Part shown: positions 3,595-63,998 of the stretch, piece after piece | Layout: each line of letters starts with the position of its first letter | Position numbering within the stretch: the stretch's first letter is position 1 | Assembly (NCBI RefSeq): GCF_964030965.1 | Contig: NZ_OZ034999.1 | Coordinates: 1,364,001-1,428,000, forward strand | From: Spiroplasma endosymbiont of Amphimallon solstitiale | Lineage (GTDB): Bacteria; Bacillota_I; Bacilli_A; Mycoplasmatales; VBWQ01 | Reading direction: 5' to 3' | Length of the DNA: 64,000 nucleotides | Translations under genes and position numbers: made by a program | The notes under the pieces: generated by a model | Database searches by the model: none | Told to the model about the DNA's origin: nothing | Seen by the model: only the letters and a program-made list of their open reading frames with translations

Positions 3595-4459
3595 TTAAAG
3601 TAAAAGTTTTAACTTATTAATTCTTGCTGAATTAATTATAAGCATATTATCAAGTACTTTATCATTATAAATTTTAGCACCATATCCTTTTAAAGATTTA
3701 ACAAGATGTGATACATCACTTTCAGCACAAACTCCTTGATTTCAATTTTCTTTTTGATTTATAACACCATCTTTATTATTTTTAAAATATTTATATATTT
3801 CTTCATTTACATTATTTTCTTTTAAATAATCTAATAATTGATAATATTCACCATTAACAAATAAATTATATGCATTTGTTAATTTTTTATTATCTACTTT
3901 TCTATTAATAATAAATCCTTTTTTAAGTGCTTTAAATGCATGATGTCTATCAATTACATAAGGAATATTTTCTTTTTTAGCAGTAGTTTTAATTCAAGGT
4001 GCACCATCACCAATAAATACTAAACTACTTTTATTATAAAAAAATTGTAAATCAAGAAATTCATAAATTTTATCAATTAATTCTTGTCTTTTAATTCTTT
4101 GACCATTTCTAGTTTTCATATAAGTAATTTTTTTATCTTTTAAAACGTTTCTACTTTTAGTAGATTTTTCTTTTAATTTTGTAGAAAAGTAATGATACAT
4201 GATAAAGTGTTATTTTTAGAGAATTTTTACACTAAATAATGTTACTTTTAACAAATTTTTAATTAAAAATAATATTTTAAGTGTAAATTGATGAATAATT
4301 TTTGGTCATCCATACTTTTCTACATAATTAAAAGATTTTTCTAAATCTTTACCTTTATTTGCACTAATTGTACGAATACGATTTTTTTGTTTTTTATTAT
4401 TAAATAATGAAGATATAAAACAATCATCCATATTTATAAATAATTTTTCATTTGGTAAT
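3595..4459 (-). pseudogene. UPF0236/ISLre2-type transposase, C-terminal part, split by MITE
   Basis: The decoded minus strand matches the catalytic half of the intact transposase at 29003-30178, motif for motif: FINMDDCFIS (compare ICADDAFVT), GDGAPWIK (GDGALWIK), DRHHAFKALK (DKYHAYSYL) and ESDVSHLVKSL (ESDVYHFLKSL). The N-terminal half is missing; at about 4459 the frame runs into a different phage gene. A 163-bp MITE with 8-bp duplication GATTTTTC interrupts it after EKS. The downstream part reopens at an ATG inside the MITE. Probably a dead remnant of a second phage of the same type. Confidence 0.7.
4171..4333 (-). repeat. 163-bp MITE, copy in transposase remnant
   Basis: Target duplication gatttttc at 4163-4170 and 4334-4341. 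Forward orientation relative to the interrupted gene. Confidence 0.9.
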
Positions 4460-11471: not shown

Positions 11472-11504
11472 AACAAAGAACGATATAACTATCGTTCTTT
11501 TTTT
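11472..11504. terminator. Hairpin at prophage left end
   Basis: Arms AAAGAACGATA and TATCGTTCTTT with a 4-nt loop, then a T run. It probably blocks transcription between host and phage. The lone end at 49617 has a longer, perfect 14-bp version (AACAAAGAACGATA). Confidence 0.7.
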
Positions 11505-11634
11505 GTTAAAAGATTAAAACTTCATAAAACTGTCGTAGAAGTCTAATAGTGAGTACTTTATGTAAATACTTCTATATCAGAATAAAAGAGCATTTAATGT
11601 TAAGCAAGTTAAAATGTTACACTGTATCGCTTAA

Positions 11635-11707
11635 TGTAATTATAGATTAATTTGAATAGCCTTATTATGGCTCAGTAAAGAACCCATTAATCTAATTAAC
11701 AATTACA
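11635..11707 (+). promoter_or_regulatory. Structured leader upstream of early operon
   Basis: The 290-nt stretch 11508-11799 has no gene. Within it TGTAATTATAGATTAAT (11635) can pair with ATTAATCTA plus AATTACA (11686-11707), enclosing a hairpin AGCC/GGCT (11658-11672). An upstream TTAAGC/GCTTAA pair encloses 11600-11634. It may be a regulatory RNA or early promoter region; I recognise no known riboswitch. Confidence 0.35.
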
Positions 11708-11799
11708 TTTGTATTATTTAAGAAAATAGGGGGTTTTTTATATATATACATACTCTATCAAATATATATTAACATATTAAAGTTAAAGAAGGAAAAAAT

Positions 11800-11988
11800 A
11801 TGAAACATAATTTTAAAGAACAAAGATATTTTTGTAGTTATTGTGAAAAATTTAGAATGAAACATTTATTTTATTTTAAAAATATATTTTTACAAGATAA
11901 AAATAATAAAGTTATTTGTATTTATTGTTGAAAATTAGGATTACATTTAAAAGAAATTTGATATGAAAAAAAAGAAAGGAAATATTAA
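11800..11988 (+). CDS. Small zinc-ribbon phage protein
   Basis: 62 residues with CSYC and CIYC motifs, likely one zinc ribbon (MKHNFKEQRYFCSYCEKF at the start). First gene of the early operon, with an agaaggaaaaaat site. A DNA- or RNA-binding role is plausible but unproven. Confidence 0.65.
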
Positions 11989-11990
11989 AA

Positions 11991-12167
11991 ATGGAAGAAG
12001 AAAAAGAAAATGAAAAATTACAAAATAAATTATTAAAAGAACAAATTGAATTAATTGAAGAGCAAAAAGAATTTTATAAAAAATCATGAAAAAGTAGAAT
12101 TATATTTTTAACAATTGGAATTATTATTATGATTTTAACATTAATAATTATTGCTTCTAAACATTAA
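11991..12167 (+). CDS. Small phage membrane protein
   Basis: 58 residues: a charged, helical N-terminus (EEEKENEKLQNKLLKEQIEL) and a C-terminal membrane helix (IIFLTIGIIIMILTLIIIA). It starts 2 nt after the previous stop. Tail-anchored topology. Function unknown. Confidence 0.6.
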
Positions 12168-12185
12168 TTGAAAGGATTAATATTT

Positions 12186-12308
12186 ATGGAATATAGAGAA
12201 TATAGAATGATTGGTTCTTGTGATAAATGTAGAAAACAATCTTCTTTTGGTAATAGATTATGTAATAAATGTTTTTGATTATTAATAGGTAGAAATAAAT
12301 ATGAGTAA
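12186..12308 (+). CDS. Very small zinc-binding phage protein
   Basis: 40 residues with CDKC and CNKC, one probable zinc site. An aaagga site precedes it. It overlaps the next start by 8 nt. Confidence 0.55.
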
Positions 12309-12951
12309 ATTAATTTTTAAAAAAGAAACTCATCAATATTTTTTAGAAGATAAAGAATTAATATCAGTTTCTAGAATTATTGATAATTATTTAGGTTTTG
12401 GATATAGTCATATAGCACCAGAAGTATTAAAAAATGCTTCAGTTCGTGGTAAATGAGTTCATAAACTTAATGAATTATATTTACAAAATATTAATGAAGA
12501 AAATATAATTAATAATTTATTAAAAAAATTAAAACCAGTAACTAATAATATAAATTATTCTTATTGTAAAAAATCACTTATGTTTTTAAAAGAAAAATTT
12601 AAAGATAAAAATAATTATGAATTTATTATTGAAAAACCTATTAATGATAATGTAATTGCTGGAACACCCGATTTAGTTTATTTAAATAAAAAAGAAAATA
12701 AATATTATTTAGTAGATTATAAAACTTATGCTTGTATTGATGAAGATAAATTAAAAAGAATTAAATTACAATTAACTGCTTATTATTGTATGTTACTTGC
12801 TAATGATATAAGTCCATGTAATAAAACTTATGTTTATTTAACTAATAAAAATAATCAAGAAACAATAGAAATTGAAATAACCAGTGAATTATTAATTGAA
12901 TGATTTAATGCAAAAACAAAATATTTTAAAGGAGAAAATAAAAATGATTAA
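12301..12951 (+). CDS. PD-(D/E)XK-type phage nuclease (RecE/Cas4-like exonuclease)
   Basis: 216 residues with the catalytic pattern of this superfamily: AGTPDLVYL, then YYLVDYKT, where GTPD supplies the Asp and DYK the Asp-x-Lys, and QLTAYYCML as the usual following Gln/Tyr helix. Such enzymes resect double-stranded DNA ends. Its partner is the RecT-like annealing protein at 13646, giving a recombination pair of RecET type for replication and repair of phage DNA. Overlapping starts show tight coupling. It is one of two genes in the early operon with a confident function. Confidence 0.75.
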
Positions 12952-13117
12952 AAAAGAAACAAATGAAATTAAAGAAAATATTAAATATTTAACTGAATTA
13001 ATAGAAGAAGTATATGATGAAGAAATAAAAATTGAAATTAGAAATCAAATTAAACATGAATTATTTTTATTAAAAACAAGAATTTTTACAGATTTAGGAG
13101 AATTAAAGAATGAATAG
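12944..13117 (+). CDS. Small coiled-coil phage protein
   Basis: 57 residues, probably one long helix (MIKKETNEIKENIKYLTELI). I chose ATG at 12944 because aaaggag lies 8 nt upstream; an upstream ATG at 12896 lacks a site. It overlaps both neighbours. Function unknown. Confidence 0.6.
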   Translation: MIKKETNEIKENIKYLTELIEEVYDEEIKIEIRNQIKHELFLLKTRIFTDLGELKNE

Positions 13118-13331
13118 AAAAGTAAAAAAAATTGTTTGTGCTACATCAGTAATTACAGATGAACAATGAAATTATGAAGAAGTAAAAAATAACTTATTAA
13201 GTATATTATTAAGTTTTAAAAATGAAATTCAATATAAAAATTGAAATAAAATTGTAAAAAAAGAATTTGAAGAAAATGATATAGATTTTATTTTTAAATT
13301 TAGATTAGAAAAGAATGATAAAAATGATTAA
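13110..13331 (+). CDS. Phage protein of unknown function
   Basis: 73 residues with two TGA-encoded Trp. Start overlaps the previous gene by 8 nt and has a taggag site. Charged, soluble, no motif recognised. Confidence 0.55.
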
Positions 13332-13515
13332 TGAAAAATCAATTAAAGAAAAAATTATTTATTCTTGTAATTCAATTGAATTTGATAAATTACCTAAAAA
13401 ATTAGATAGTAATGTAAATAATTGAATTGTTATTAATAGTCATTTAATAGTTAATCCTAATAAAAATATTGAAGTACATTTAGATAATAGATTTAAAACA
13501 ATTAAAAAATGATAG
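13324..13515 (+). CDS. Phage protein of unknown function
   Basis: 63 residues, overlapping the previous stop by 8 nt. Mixed beta-like C-terminus (WIVINSHLIVNPNKNIEVHL). No recognisable family. Confidence 0.55.
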
Positions 13516-13524
13516 GAGCAACTT

Positions 13525-13653
13525 ATGGATAAAAAAAGTTCTGGTATGGATAAATCAATTTTAATTTTATTAAAACATTTAGGAAAAATTAATAAAAAAT
13601 TAGATGAAATTTTAGAATTATTAAATAAAAAAGGAGAATCAACTAATGAGTAA
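13525..13653 (+). CDS. Small phage protein, helical
   Basis: 42 residues with a leucine-rich helix (ILILLKHLGKINKKLDEILE). Preceded by ataggagcaactt; overlaps the recT-like start by 8 nt. Confidence 0.5.
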   Translation: MDKKSSGMDKSILILLKHLGKINKKLDEILELLNKKGESTNE

Positions 13654-14488
13654 TAATAAAAATGAATTAAAAATTCCTAATTTTATTAAAAGTAATAAAG
13701 AAGAATATGTAAAATTTAGAAATTATTATGAAATGATTATAAATTCTAGTAAAGATTTAAAAAATATGAATACACAAAGTTTAATTAATGCATTAATTAA
13801 TTTATATAAATTAAATCTTTCAATTAATCCAATTAAAAAAGAATTAGCATTAATTCCTTATGGTGATGAATTACAAGTTCAAATTCAAGAAGATGGTTGA
13901 TTAACATTATTACAAAGAACTGGATTAGTTGTTGATTTTCAAAGAGAAAAAATAACAACTGCACATAAATTTAATAAAGAAAATAATAAATGAGAAATTA
14001 ATCCAGCATTAATTTTTGAAAGAAAAACAATTAATACTATTGGTTATTATTGTTATATTTCACTTTTAGATAAAAATGGTAAAATTAATAATTTTTATAA
14101 AGGAATGACTGTTGAAGAAATTAATCAACATAAAGATAAATATGGAAAAACTTATAATAAAAAAAGTCAAGAATGAAAATTAAATCATATATGAACTTCT
14201 GCATTTGACCAAATGGCTTTAAAAACAGTAGTTAAAGCATTAATTCGTGAAATTAATAAAACACCAATTATAGTATTAAATAATCAAGATGATATTAATT
14301 TGGCACTTCAATTAGACCAAGGTGTAGTAATTGATGAAGAAACTATTGCATATAAGGATAATACTGGTGATGAAGTTAAAATTATTAATTCAAATAATAA
14401 TATTGATAATACTGATATAAATTCTACTTTATCTAAATTAAAAGAATTAGAAAAAGAAGAAGAAATTATAGAAAATTTTGAAGTTTAG
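13646..14488 (+). CDS. RecT-family single-strand annealing protein
   Basis: 280 residues. The core matches RecT: LNLSINPIKKELALIPYG, then LQVQIQEDGWLTLLQRTG, later TINTIGYYCYISLLDKNGK, and the closing helix FDQMALKTVVKALIRE. It binds single-stranded DNA and anneals complementary strands, working with the nuclease encoded at 12301. The last 60 residues are acidic and Asn-rich and probably disordered. aaaaaggagaatcaact gives the start. Confidence 0.8.
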
Positions 14489-14505
14489 TGAAAGGTAAAT
14501 TCATT

Positions 14506-14664
14506 ATGAATAAAGAAAAATTAAATAATTATTTAATAAATGAGATTAATAAATATTATAAATTACCAATAGAAGAAGCATTAAAAAATTATAATTTATC
14601 AGCACAACATACTTTAAAAATAATTTATGAAAAAATTAAAAATGGTGAATTTGATAATGACTAA
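14506..14664 (+). CDS. Small phage protein
   Basis: 52 residues with a possible helix-turn-helix-like pattern (YYKLPIEEALKNYNLSAQHT). Preceded by gaaagg; overlaps the next gene by 8 nt. Function unknown. Confidence 0.5.
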   Translation: MNKEKLNNYLINEINKYYKLPIEEALKNYNLSAQHTLKIIYEKIKNGEFDND

Positions 14665-14767
14665 ACAAGATATTTTAGAAATAATAGATAAATTAAAAGA
14701 ATTAAAAAATTTAGTTGGAATAACTATCAATATAAATATTGATGATATTAATATTGAAAATAATTAA
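14657..14767 (+). CDS. Very small phage protein
   Basis: 36 residues, helical N-terminus and a short alternating C-terminus (VGITININIDDINIEN). Last gene before the ribozyme. Low but consistent support from the 8-nt overlapping start. Confidence 0.45.
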   Translation: MTKQDILEIIDKLKELKNLVGITININIDDINIENN

Positions 14768-14867
14768 TATTTAGGCATTTGACATATATCCTTTCTAACT
14801 CCTATTCCCTATTTTTTATTCTTGCTTAAAATATGTCAATGTAAGTCCTAAATTTTATATCTATACA

Positions 14868-14948
14868 GAACGAAACTATAGAATTATTAAAAATTTGGAT
14901 AACATTATAATTCTATAGTCCACCGTTTATTACGGTGCTGATGAGTTC
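14868..14948 (+). ncRNA. Type II hammerhead ribozyme, copy 1
   Basis: All conserved parts are in the type II order. Stem II strand GAAC (14868-14871), core GAAA (14872-14875), stem III CTATAGAATTAT pairing perfectly over 12 bp with ATAATTCTATAG (14907-14918), U16.1 and C17 (14919-14920), stem I CACCGT/ACGGTG with loop TTATT (14921-14937), core CTGATGA (14938-14944), and closing stem II strand GTTC (14945-14948). Predicted cleavage is after C at 14920. It lies between the early gene ending at 14767 and the gene at 14967, whose ribosome-binding site follows at once, so it probably trims a phage transcript and leaves a hairpin at the new 5' end. Confidence 0.9.
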
Positions 14949-14966
14949 ATAAAAGGATGTGAAATA

Positions 14967-15224
14967 ATGAGAAATATTAGAACTGAATGATTTTATAATG
15001 ACAAAAGTCCAAAAGAAATAAAATGTCCAACAGTAAGTTTATTAAAAAATAAAGAAGATGCTTTATGTTATTTATTAGCATTAAATTTATATCCAAAATT
15101 ATATCCACAAGATATTTTTTATTCATGAATATTAGAAAATAATCAAACTGGATATTTAATTATAGTTGGTAATAATAGAGATACTATTGGAAATATGCAA
15201 TTTAAATTTATAAAAGAAAGTTAA
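14967..15224 (+). CDS. Phage protein downstream of ribozyme, unknown function
   Basis: 85 residues (MRNIRTEWFYNDKSPKEIKC at the start), soluble, with Trp read from TGA twice. aaaaggatgtgaaata precedes it. The hammerhead cleavage point is 46 nt upstream of the start, so this gene begins the processed transcript. An identical copy lies at 63642. Confidence 0.65.
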
Positions 15225-15226
15225 TC

Positions 15227-15337
15227 ATGAATAATATGGAGTTATTAATATATTTAACAGAAGATTATAAAGAATGTAATTTTTATAACAATTATTTAAT
15301 TTATAAACTTATGAACATTATTATAAAAGGAGAATAG
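15227..15337 (+). CDS. Very small phage protein
   Basis: 36 residues (MNNMELLIYLTEDYKECNFY). Starts 2 nt after the preceding stop; the aaaaggag that closes it serves the next gene. Repeated at 63529, which supports it as a conserved part of the phage. Confidence 0.5.
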   Translation: MNNMELLIYLTEDYKECNFYNNYLIYKLMNIIIKGE

Positions 15338-16101
15338 AAAATGCCAAATACAGAAACTACAAATTCAAATTATACTTTATTAAAATTAATAAGAACGGGA
15401 ATATCACCATTATCAGCAATGATAGGTATAAGTTCATATTATGGACATTTATTAAATTATCCAATATTAGGAAGTATTAATGCTTTATTTTTTAGTAAAA
15501 AATTAGGAATTGATATTTGAAATATTAATCAACATCCAACACCTAAAAATAAATTAATTAATATATTTAAAAAAATAACAATTGGTTTAAGTACAACTTT
15601 TATAACAAATTATATTAAATGAAACGAAAATAATATTAATCCTATTATTCCAACAACACCAATTCCTACAACTACTGTTGACCCATTTCCACCAGATTTA
15701 TTATTTAATATTAATACTAATAATGATAATAATTTCATGGATTGAGATACTTATATTTCATTAAATGCTTTTGCTTTTGCAAATCTTATTAGTGCTTTTA
15801 CTGAATTAATACCGAATAGATTTGAAAATATAAGAAAGATATGTAATATGGCAACTGGTGGTTGTTTAATTTCAAGTGGTGTTGCAATGGGGATAAATAA
15901 TGATTTTAATAATGCTTATGCAGTTCCGACAATAGTTGCTGGAGCAAGTGAAATTATTCATAATTTATTACCAATGGAAACTACAAATCATATTCAAGAA
16001 ATGCAAGAAACAGCATTTAATAATGAAACAAGAAGATTAATAAATGATAATAGATTTACCATTGGCAATGTTTAGTAATCTGTGTAACTTACAAAAATAA
16101 C

Positions 16102-16263
16102 CTTTAATTTTGTAGAAAAGTAATGATACATGATAAAGTGTTATTTTTAGAGAATTTTTACACTAAATAATGTTACTTTTAACAAATTTTTAATTAAAAA
16201 TAATATTTTAAGTGTAAATTGATGAATAATTTTTGGTCATCCATACTTTTCTACATAATTAAA
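16102..16263 (-). repeat. MITE in IS256 leader
   Basis: Duplication aaaataac at 16094-16101 and 16264-16271, with one A fewer at the right end. Copies 2 and 3 of IS256 lack it. Confidence 0.9.
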
Positions 16264-16304
16264 AAAAATAACTATGTTTAATTAATTCTAGTAAATATAA
16301 TTAA

Positions 16305-57986: not shown

Positions 57987-59033
57987 CTAACGATATCTTT
58001 CTACATAGTGACTAACTAAACCACGATAAATAAAAGGTATTGTTAATTGCATAATTGGATAAGTAAACAAAAAAATATGAATAAAATTGTAAACTAATGA
58101 GTAAAAAAGAGGATTAAATCCTGATCAAATATTTTTACTTCCATCAGCATTAGTAATTTGTGATCAAATAAAATATCCTGCTATTGTTTGTCAAAAATAA
58201 ATAATTAAACAAACTAAAAAACAATGTAAAAAATAATTAATATAAGTAAAAATTGATTTATCAGCTTTTAAATTAAAACGTAATAATGAAATAATAGCCG
58301 GCGTTGTCATTGGCAAAAAATAATCTAATAAATAACTTCAAGTACTAATAACATAACCACCACCAATAAATAATAATGACATTAAAGCACTAATCATACC
58401 CGTTAATCATCCACTTGCAAAGCCAATAATATAACTAATAACCATTAAAGGTATATATTTAATAGCAATACCGCCGCCGTATGGCATTTTTGGTAATAAA
58501 TTTTGTTCAATAAAAGCACAAGCAATAGTTACACCAGTAAATAAAGCAATAATTGTATAATCAATAACTAATCATCGTTTAATACCAAATGCAAATTTAA
58601 AATTAGTTCATCATCTTGTTTTTAAAATGGCAAAAGTTTCTTCTTTTTGTCATTGATAATGTTTAATTAAATTAAAAATTAATGCAATGGGATTGATACT
58701 AAAAATTGATAGTAATGTAACAATAACAATATTTTTATGCATATCTTCTATTTTAACTGTTCATGTAATAACAGATAATAAAATTGATGAAATTAATAAT
58801 AAACAAAGAATTAATATTAAATAAATTTTACTGCTATAAAATTGTCAACCAGTAATAGTAGTAACTTTAAAAAAGTGATTAATACCACTAGCAGGTAAAA
58901 TACTAATAATAACTGTTAATGTTAGAAGAGTAATTAAACTAAAAATGGCTGATGCTTTAATTAACATTCCTACCCCCAGTTTGCTTTTAATTTTATTATA
59001 ATTGATAGTTGTTAATAGTTGTTCTTTAAACAT
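57987..59033 (-). CDS. thiT: ThiT-like thiamine transporter component
   Basis: 348 residues, larger than most ThiT proteins (about 190) because of an N-terminal part with three or so membrane helices (LIKASAIFSLITLLTLTVII). The C-terminal half has the ThiT look: KMPYGGGIAIKYIPLMVISY, GFASGWLTGMISALMSLLFI, YVISTWSYLLDYFLPM and NYFLHCFLVCLIIYFW. As an ECF substrate-binding unit it would import thiamine. The TPP riboswitch upstream supports this strongly. SD AAAGGAG is 13 nt from ATG and lies in a hairpin. Confidence 0.8.
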
Positions 59034-59090: not shown

Positions 59091-59104
59091 TTAAAATATA
59101 AAAA

Positions 59105-59179
59105 ATAAAGTCTCCCTCCGCTAGTACTAACTAGATCAGGTTATAGGGTATTTCTCAGGCAATGCCACCCCTGCTTTAT
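59105..59179 (-). promoter_or_regulatory. TPP riboswitch (THI element)
   Basis: The minus strand carries the conserved parts in order: GGGGTG, CTGAGAAATACCC, ACCTGATC, GTTAGTACTAGCGGAGGGA. P1 is formed by ATAAAG and CTTTAT. It binds thiamine pyrophosphate and turns down the downstream thiT gene. Confidence 0.97.
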
Positions 59180-59385
59180 ATAATATATGCAAATTAATCC
59201 ATATTTACTACTATTATAACATTCAAAATATTTTTTTAAATATAAAATATAATTTTTTTACGATTTTTAGTTTAAATTAAAATTTGCTCTATTTTTATTT
59301 GAAATTTATTTGAAAAAAAATAAAATATATTCACTTCTTAAAAATAAGAAGTTATTGGGAAAAAATAAAAAGGAGTTTTTTAAAT

Positions 59386-63917: not shown

Positions 63918-63998
63918 GAACTCATCAGCACCGTAATAAACGGTGGACTATAGAATTATAATGTTATCCAAATTTTTAATAATTCTATAGTTTCGTTC
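63918..63998 (-). ncRNA. Type II hammerhead ribozyme, copy 2
   Basis: Identical to 14868-14948 by eye; all core and stem elements are complete just inside the window edge. Cleavage is predicted between 63946 and 63945. Confidence 0.9.

Follow-up and report, generated by a model that had tools for sequence, protein, structure and literature searches.

What is the 81-nt stretch that lies between a RecT module and a small gene in a prophage of the insect-associated bacterium Spiroplasma, and what would it do to the RNA in which it is transcribed? At this point the window, that is, the whole 64-kb stretch of DNA analyzed, reads GAAC GAAA CTATAGAATTAT-(19 nt)-ATAATTCTATAG U C CACCGT-TTATT-ACGGTG CTGATGA GTTC. 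From these letters and the comparisons below, positions 14868-14948 are confirmed as a complete type II hammerhead ribozyme, for which cleavage is predicted. The kind is already known, with phages of many other bacteria carrying type II hammerheads; this one appears to be the first example in the wall-less bacterial group and extends self-cleaving phage ribozymes to Spiroplasma. The preliminary description of the locus knew of no such report in Spiroplasma, and we found none in the literature searched, which covers few subscription journals, so that an earlier listing is possible. The one paper found that names hammerhead, ribozyme, and Spiroplasma appears to concern rRNA engineering in Mycoplasma mycoides.

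Elements of a type II hammerhead ribozyme

The core elements CUGANGA, GAAA, and UH are present in the type II order GAAA - UH - CUGANGA, together with three stems of which stem II is open-ended, as judged by folding and by covariation with phage sequences (Table 1). Stem III is formed by 14876-14887 with 14907-14918 plus the A14875-U14919 pair, and stem I by 14921-14926 with 14932-14937. The pairs closing the core are also present: 10.1-11.1 (G14945-C14871), 1.1-2.1 (C14921-G14937), and 15.1-16.1 (A14875-U14919). The preliminary description had claimed an 81-nt motif with all conserved elements in type II order, 46 nt from the cleavage site to the ATG at 14967. Every element is in its place and the distance is correct, while the type II class is supported by the core, the stems, and a covariance model built from Spiroplasma copies. 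When 14860-14960 was folded, the minimum free energy and centroid structures were both the hammerhead (z = -2.55). In a longer transcript the probability of stem II ranged from 0.01 to 0.78 on secondary-structure energies alone, and stem II was not always favored.

Table 1. Features of the ribozyme locus and its neighbors in the window
Feature	Position	Strand	Basis or remark
Phage exonuclease, PD-(D/E)XK superfamily	12301..12951	+	phrog_298 E 1.7e-15; PF12705 E 3.3e-8
RecT-family ssDNA annealing protein	13646..14488	+	Pfam PF03837 E 7e-25; phrog_148 E 1.5e-26
Inverted repeat TAGG-CATTTGACATAT ... ATATGTCAA-TGTAAGT-CCTA	14772..14850	+	arms invariant; precedes the ribozyme in every case
Type II hammerhead ribozyme, whole motif	14868..14948	+	direct reading, fold, scanner and shuffles, covariance model, covariation
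Stem II 5' strand GAAC	14868..14871	+	partner GTTC 14945-14948; reading, fold
Core GAAA	14872..14875	+	A14875 pairs with U14919; reading; no change in any copy
Stem III hairpin, 12 bp, 19-nt loop	14876..14918	+	reading, fold, covariation
H17 = C14920 (C17), predicted cleavage 14920/14921	14920	+	expected from known hammerhead chemistry
Stem I hairpin, 6 bp, 5-nt loop	14921..14937	+	reading, fold, covariation
Core CTGATGA	14938..14944	+	reading; no change in any copy
Stem II 3' strand GTTC	14945..14948	+	reading, fold
Shine-Dalgarno AAAGGA of 85-aa gene	14952..14957	+	direct reading
85-aa gene	14967..15224	+	only seen with the ribozyme upstream; no family match
Gene after 85-aa gene	15341..16075	+	39 matches in the genome, some fragments, most without ribozyme
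Second copy of ribozyme, identical	63918..63998	-	other prophage, right end of window

Chance resemblance and covariation

A strict scanner requiring the core, U-H, and three uninterrupted stems matched the 64-kb window only at 14868-14948 (+) and 63918-63998 (-). Dinucleotide shuffles of the whole window produced 1 weak match in 300, none with stems as long. Because the scanner finds the two copies only and the shuffles give so little, we regard a chance resemblance as excluded.

A pattern search of IMG/VR returned 108 stretches, and a scan of those loci gave 134 type II hammerheads, 118 of them distinct. A covariance model (R1) made from eight Spiroplasma copies only recovered 27 type II hammerheads from phages at E < 0.01; L108 scored best (1.6e-10), and L051, L066, L040, and the AT-rich L136 were also among them. 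In an alignment derived from R1, and thus fitted to the model and biased toward the structure, standard pairs fill 96.6% of cells (30-44% once the partners are slid), and two-sided stem changes number 192 cells versus a shuffled mean of 57. The IMG/VR pattern fixed the words CGAAAC, GTCNACC, and CTGATGAG, so that pairs within them are partly forced; the remainder of stem III and the outer stem II pairs are free of this constraint. Across phages, stem II pairs in the covariance alignment are of the types GC, AU, CG, and UA. A second model, R2, scores the window copy at 64.7 bits, the Spiroplasma copies being part of its input.

The Rfam model and the short-loop subtype

A covariance search with the Rfam hammerhead type II model, proposed in the preliminary description as a check, gave no match, which in form is an outcome that it had named as refuting. 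No hammerhead in Rfam 15 matched 14868-14948 at the gathering score or at E up to 10, the window copy did not reach the RF02276 gathering threshold (37 bits), and neither the genome nor the control genomes contained a match to RF02276. Hammerhead types I and III were likewise without a match in the window's genome and in the controls. The missing Rfam match is a gap of the RF02276 model and tells nothing about the sequence, because 18 of 19 phage members of its subtype escape RF02276 too and because the Spiroplasma-built model finds phage type II hammerheads at E values of about 1e-10.

The subtype is defined by loop I and stem II. Where loop I has at least 7 nt, 80 of 87 phage hammerheads can pair it with the tail after stem II by at least four Watson-Crick pairs (mean 21 with the tails swapped), corresponding to the type II pseudoknot described by Perreault et al. 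(PMC3088659). When loop I is short, only 6 of 31 allow this pairing, and a stem II of at least 4 bp is commoner (p = 1e-4). RF02276 detects 15 of 26 and 4 of 11 of the long-loop kinds versus 1 of 19 of the kind with a short loop and a 4-bp stem II, to which the Spiroplasma ribozyme belongs. As the Rfam type II model is nearly blind to this subtype, short-loop type II ribozymes are probably undercounted.

Like the type II hammerheads of phages and prophages (PMC3088659; RF02276), the Spiroplasma ribozyme has an open stem II, closed stems I and III, and the consensus core, and it shares with them an intergenic prophage site just ahead of a gene start (PMC3088659). Unlike the published type II consensus (PMC3088659), loop I is short, stem II has 4 bp, and stem III has 12 AU-rich bp. 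It further differs in that a UUAU/AUAA pseudoknot is possible in only three of the five Spiroplasma loop variants (in one case by means of a G-U pair) and not in the other two, which leaves the cleavage speed at cellular Mg2+ uncertain. Short-loop hammerheads from IMG/VR (L108:9074-9139, L066:9738-9801, L040:2661-2725 and 3628-3694, L136:4347-4408) have in common with it the 4-bp stem II, GNNCGAAAC, a stem I hairpin with a 3-5-nt loop, and escape from Rfam; they differ in stem sequences, flanking genes, and base composition (except L136). The ardA hammerheads of Agrobacterium and Legionella (PMC3088659) also sit directly upstream of one phage-associated gene in several strains, whereas the Spiroplasma neighbor is an 85-aa gene without a match to known families. 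The phage hammerheads of that study form a series, in contrast to the one copy per prophage in Spiroplasma. Two IMG/VR phage contigs, L144 (11 in 8 kb) and L078 (12 in 13 kb), carry type II hammerheads at intervals of a few hundred bases, a spacing that would fit the release of many individual genes from one long transcript.

Copies and conservation

Three Spiroplasma genomes encode a total of 17 full copies. The window's genome has four, identical over 199 nt, and two other genomes, one from the Spiroplasma endosymbiont of Danaus chrysippus, have three and ten. No ribozyme was found in three other Spiroplasma genomes or in more than 300 further genomes of the order, the large searches being run with stricter filters. 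Among nine haplotypes, stems and core vary in 0 of 57 columns, and all changes within the ribozyme are in the loops (7 of 25 columns), including the stem I loop, which differs between Spiroplasma copies. By comparison, variable columns number 66 of 127 in the leader upstream and 35 of 256 in the adjacent 85-aa gene (stems and core versus gene, p = 8e-4). The 18-nt linker at 14949-14966, which includes the Shine-Dalgarno, has no variation in these haplotypes. As all 17 full copies share one prophage site, a self-moving ribozyme was rejected.

Truncated copies of leader and ribozyme occur at L036 (G004:C2:80319-81261) and L037 (G004:C2:21413-22007), each followed by unrelated sequence that in L036 includes a transposase-like coding sequence. 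In another genome of the same class, L216 (G452:C39:44903-44965) is clearly a type II hammerhead, each of its three stems being paired. Weak matches in other Mollicutes were rejected: the one in G286 (L215) is in coding sequence and lacks the core, that in G260 (L214) lacks the GAAA, and the strict scanner finds no hammerhead around L159-L168.

Prophage setting

The genes run in the order exonuclease, RecT, small variable ORFs, ribozyme, 85-aa gene, and second gene, with opposite-facing structural genes that weakly match portal, tail, and terminase small-subunit families. The succession of upstream module, ribozyme, 85-aa gene, and next gene is kept in 17 of 17 full copies, the exceptions being insertion sequences and single copies with RecT split, divergent, or not seen. 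Placement in a prophage between the RecT module and the next genes, as first described, is thus supported by the neighbors and by every full copy.

Five Spiroplasma genomes (G000, G001, G002, G004, G005) each contain about 24-40 matches to the gene that follows the 85-aa gene, a number pointing to many related prophages or remnants in every one of them. Of 39 other such prophage sites surveyed, none has the ribozyme and none the upstream inverted repeat. Different small ORFs occupy their slot, in many cases a 78-81-aa gene overlapping or closely following the previous ORF; in ribozyme-bearing copies the gap at the slot is 134-214 nt. The role of phage hammerheads becomes testable here, because related prophages without the ribozyme in one genome provide a natural with/without comparison. 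Homology of the 85-aa protein to the 78-81-aa protein of the same slot was rejected (8% probability), family searches gave no match to known families, and its predicted structure is of low confidence (pLDDT 54.5). No relatives of the RecT were found in IMG/VR and no similar DNA in phage records; plasmid records contained one partial DNA match, which ends short of the ribozyme.

Rfam has no match for the inverted repeat at 14772-14850. Its loop varies in length and sequence, and its arms, being invariant, offer no covariation. Use of TTGACATAT as an operator elsewhere in the window was rejected, as matches are no more frequent than by chance. On the sequences compared, the inverted repeat, ribozyme, and 85-aa gene behave as one cassette, because the other 39 sites lack both ribozyme and repeat and hold other small ORFs.

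Proposed function and rival explanations

We consider it very probable that this is a functional type II hammerhead of one tailed-phage prophage lineage that splits one transcript into two hairpin-protected mRNAs. RNA polymerase would read through from the RecT/exonuclease module, and the interval 11500-16300 showed no intrinsic terminator. The ribozyme would then fold and, following established hammerhead chemistry, cut after C14920. In the upstream product a 2',3'-cyclic phosphate would terminate the RNA, with the stem III hairpin capping that 3' end. The downstream product would carry a 5'-OH and open immediately with the stem I hairpin, 31 nt ahead of the Shine-Dalgarno of the 85-aa gene. 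Such a cut would likely serve to separate the RecT transcript from the mRNA of the 85-aa gene, leaving a hairpin at both new ends. Early transcription, cleavage, and an effect of the 5' hairpin are what we infer. Clustered prophage hammerheads flanking genes cleave in vitro, and the Agrobacterium set does so in vivo in E. coli as well (PMC3088659). The window ribozyme ends 18 nt before the start codon with the Shine-Dalgarno between. In phages, 40% of type II hammerheads lie with their end 18-30 nt ahead of a start codon, versus 4% at shifted positions.

A real hammerhead might instead regulate the 85-aa gene, with cleavage, perhaps set by the inverted repeat, switching translation on or off. 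The copies examined combine the three elements, the 39 other prophage sites never do, and the linker with the Shine-Dalgarno is invariant; even so, we consider this reading unlikely. A Shine-Dalgarno hairpin formed after cleavage is not enriched, with 11% after phage hammerheads versus 20% for other genes on the same contigs. The fold had suggested that the leader hides the Shine-Dalgarno, but this was rejected too: shuffled leaders hide it at least as well as native ones, and its predicted exposure before cleavage is not below that with shuffled upstream sequence. More doubtful still is a naturally regulated hammerhead, whose cleavage would be governed by a phage or host factor that binds the repeat and would in turn determine the output of the 85-aa gene.

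Comparably improbable, and slightly more so, is a once-active ribozyme that is now inert and kept only since the prophages are recent copies. In one genome the copies match at 100% over 199 nt, and insertion sequences disrupt some copies, but between haplotypes the leader and the gene have diverged while stems and core have not. That two AT-rich hairpins, for example terminators, resemble a hammerhead by chance has a negligible probability. The genome is AT-rich and Rfam gives no match; however, no shuffled window gave a match as strong, the unpaired core letters are invariant in all copies, and the covariance model ties the Spiroplasma motif to phage hammerheads. The split of one transcript into two mRNAs is the reading we retain.

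Downstream of the hammerheads in L108, L040, and L138 there is a repeated AAACACTGGAGGTGTTTATG, with the Shine-Dalgarno in a hairpin loop that reaches the start codon. The window also encodes a TPP riboswitch at 59095-59182 (-) (RF00059, 63.4 bits), upstream of a gene for a multi-spanning membrane protein at 57987-59033.
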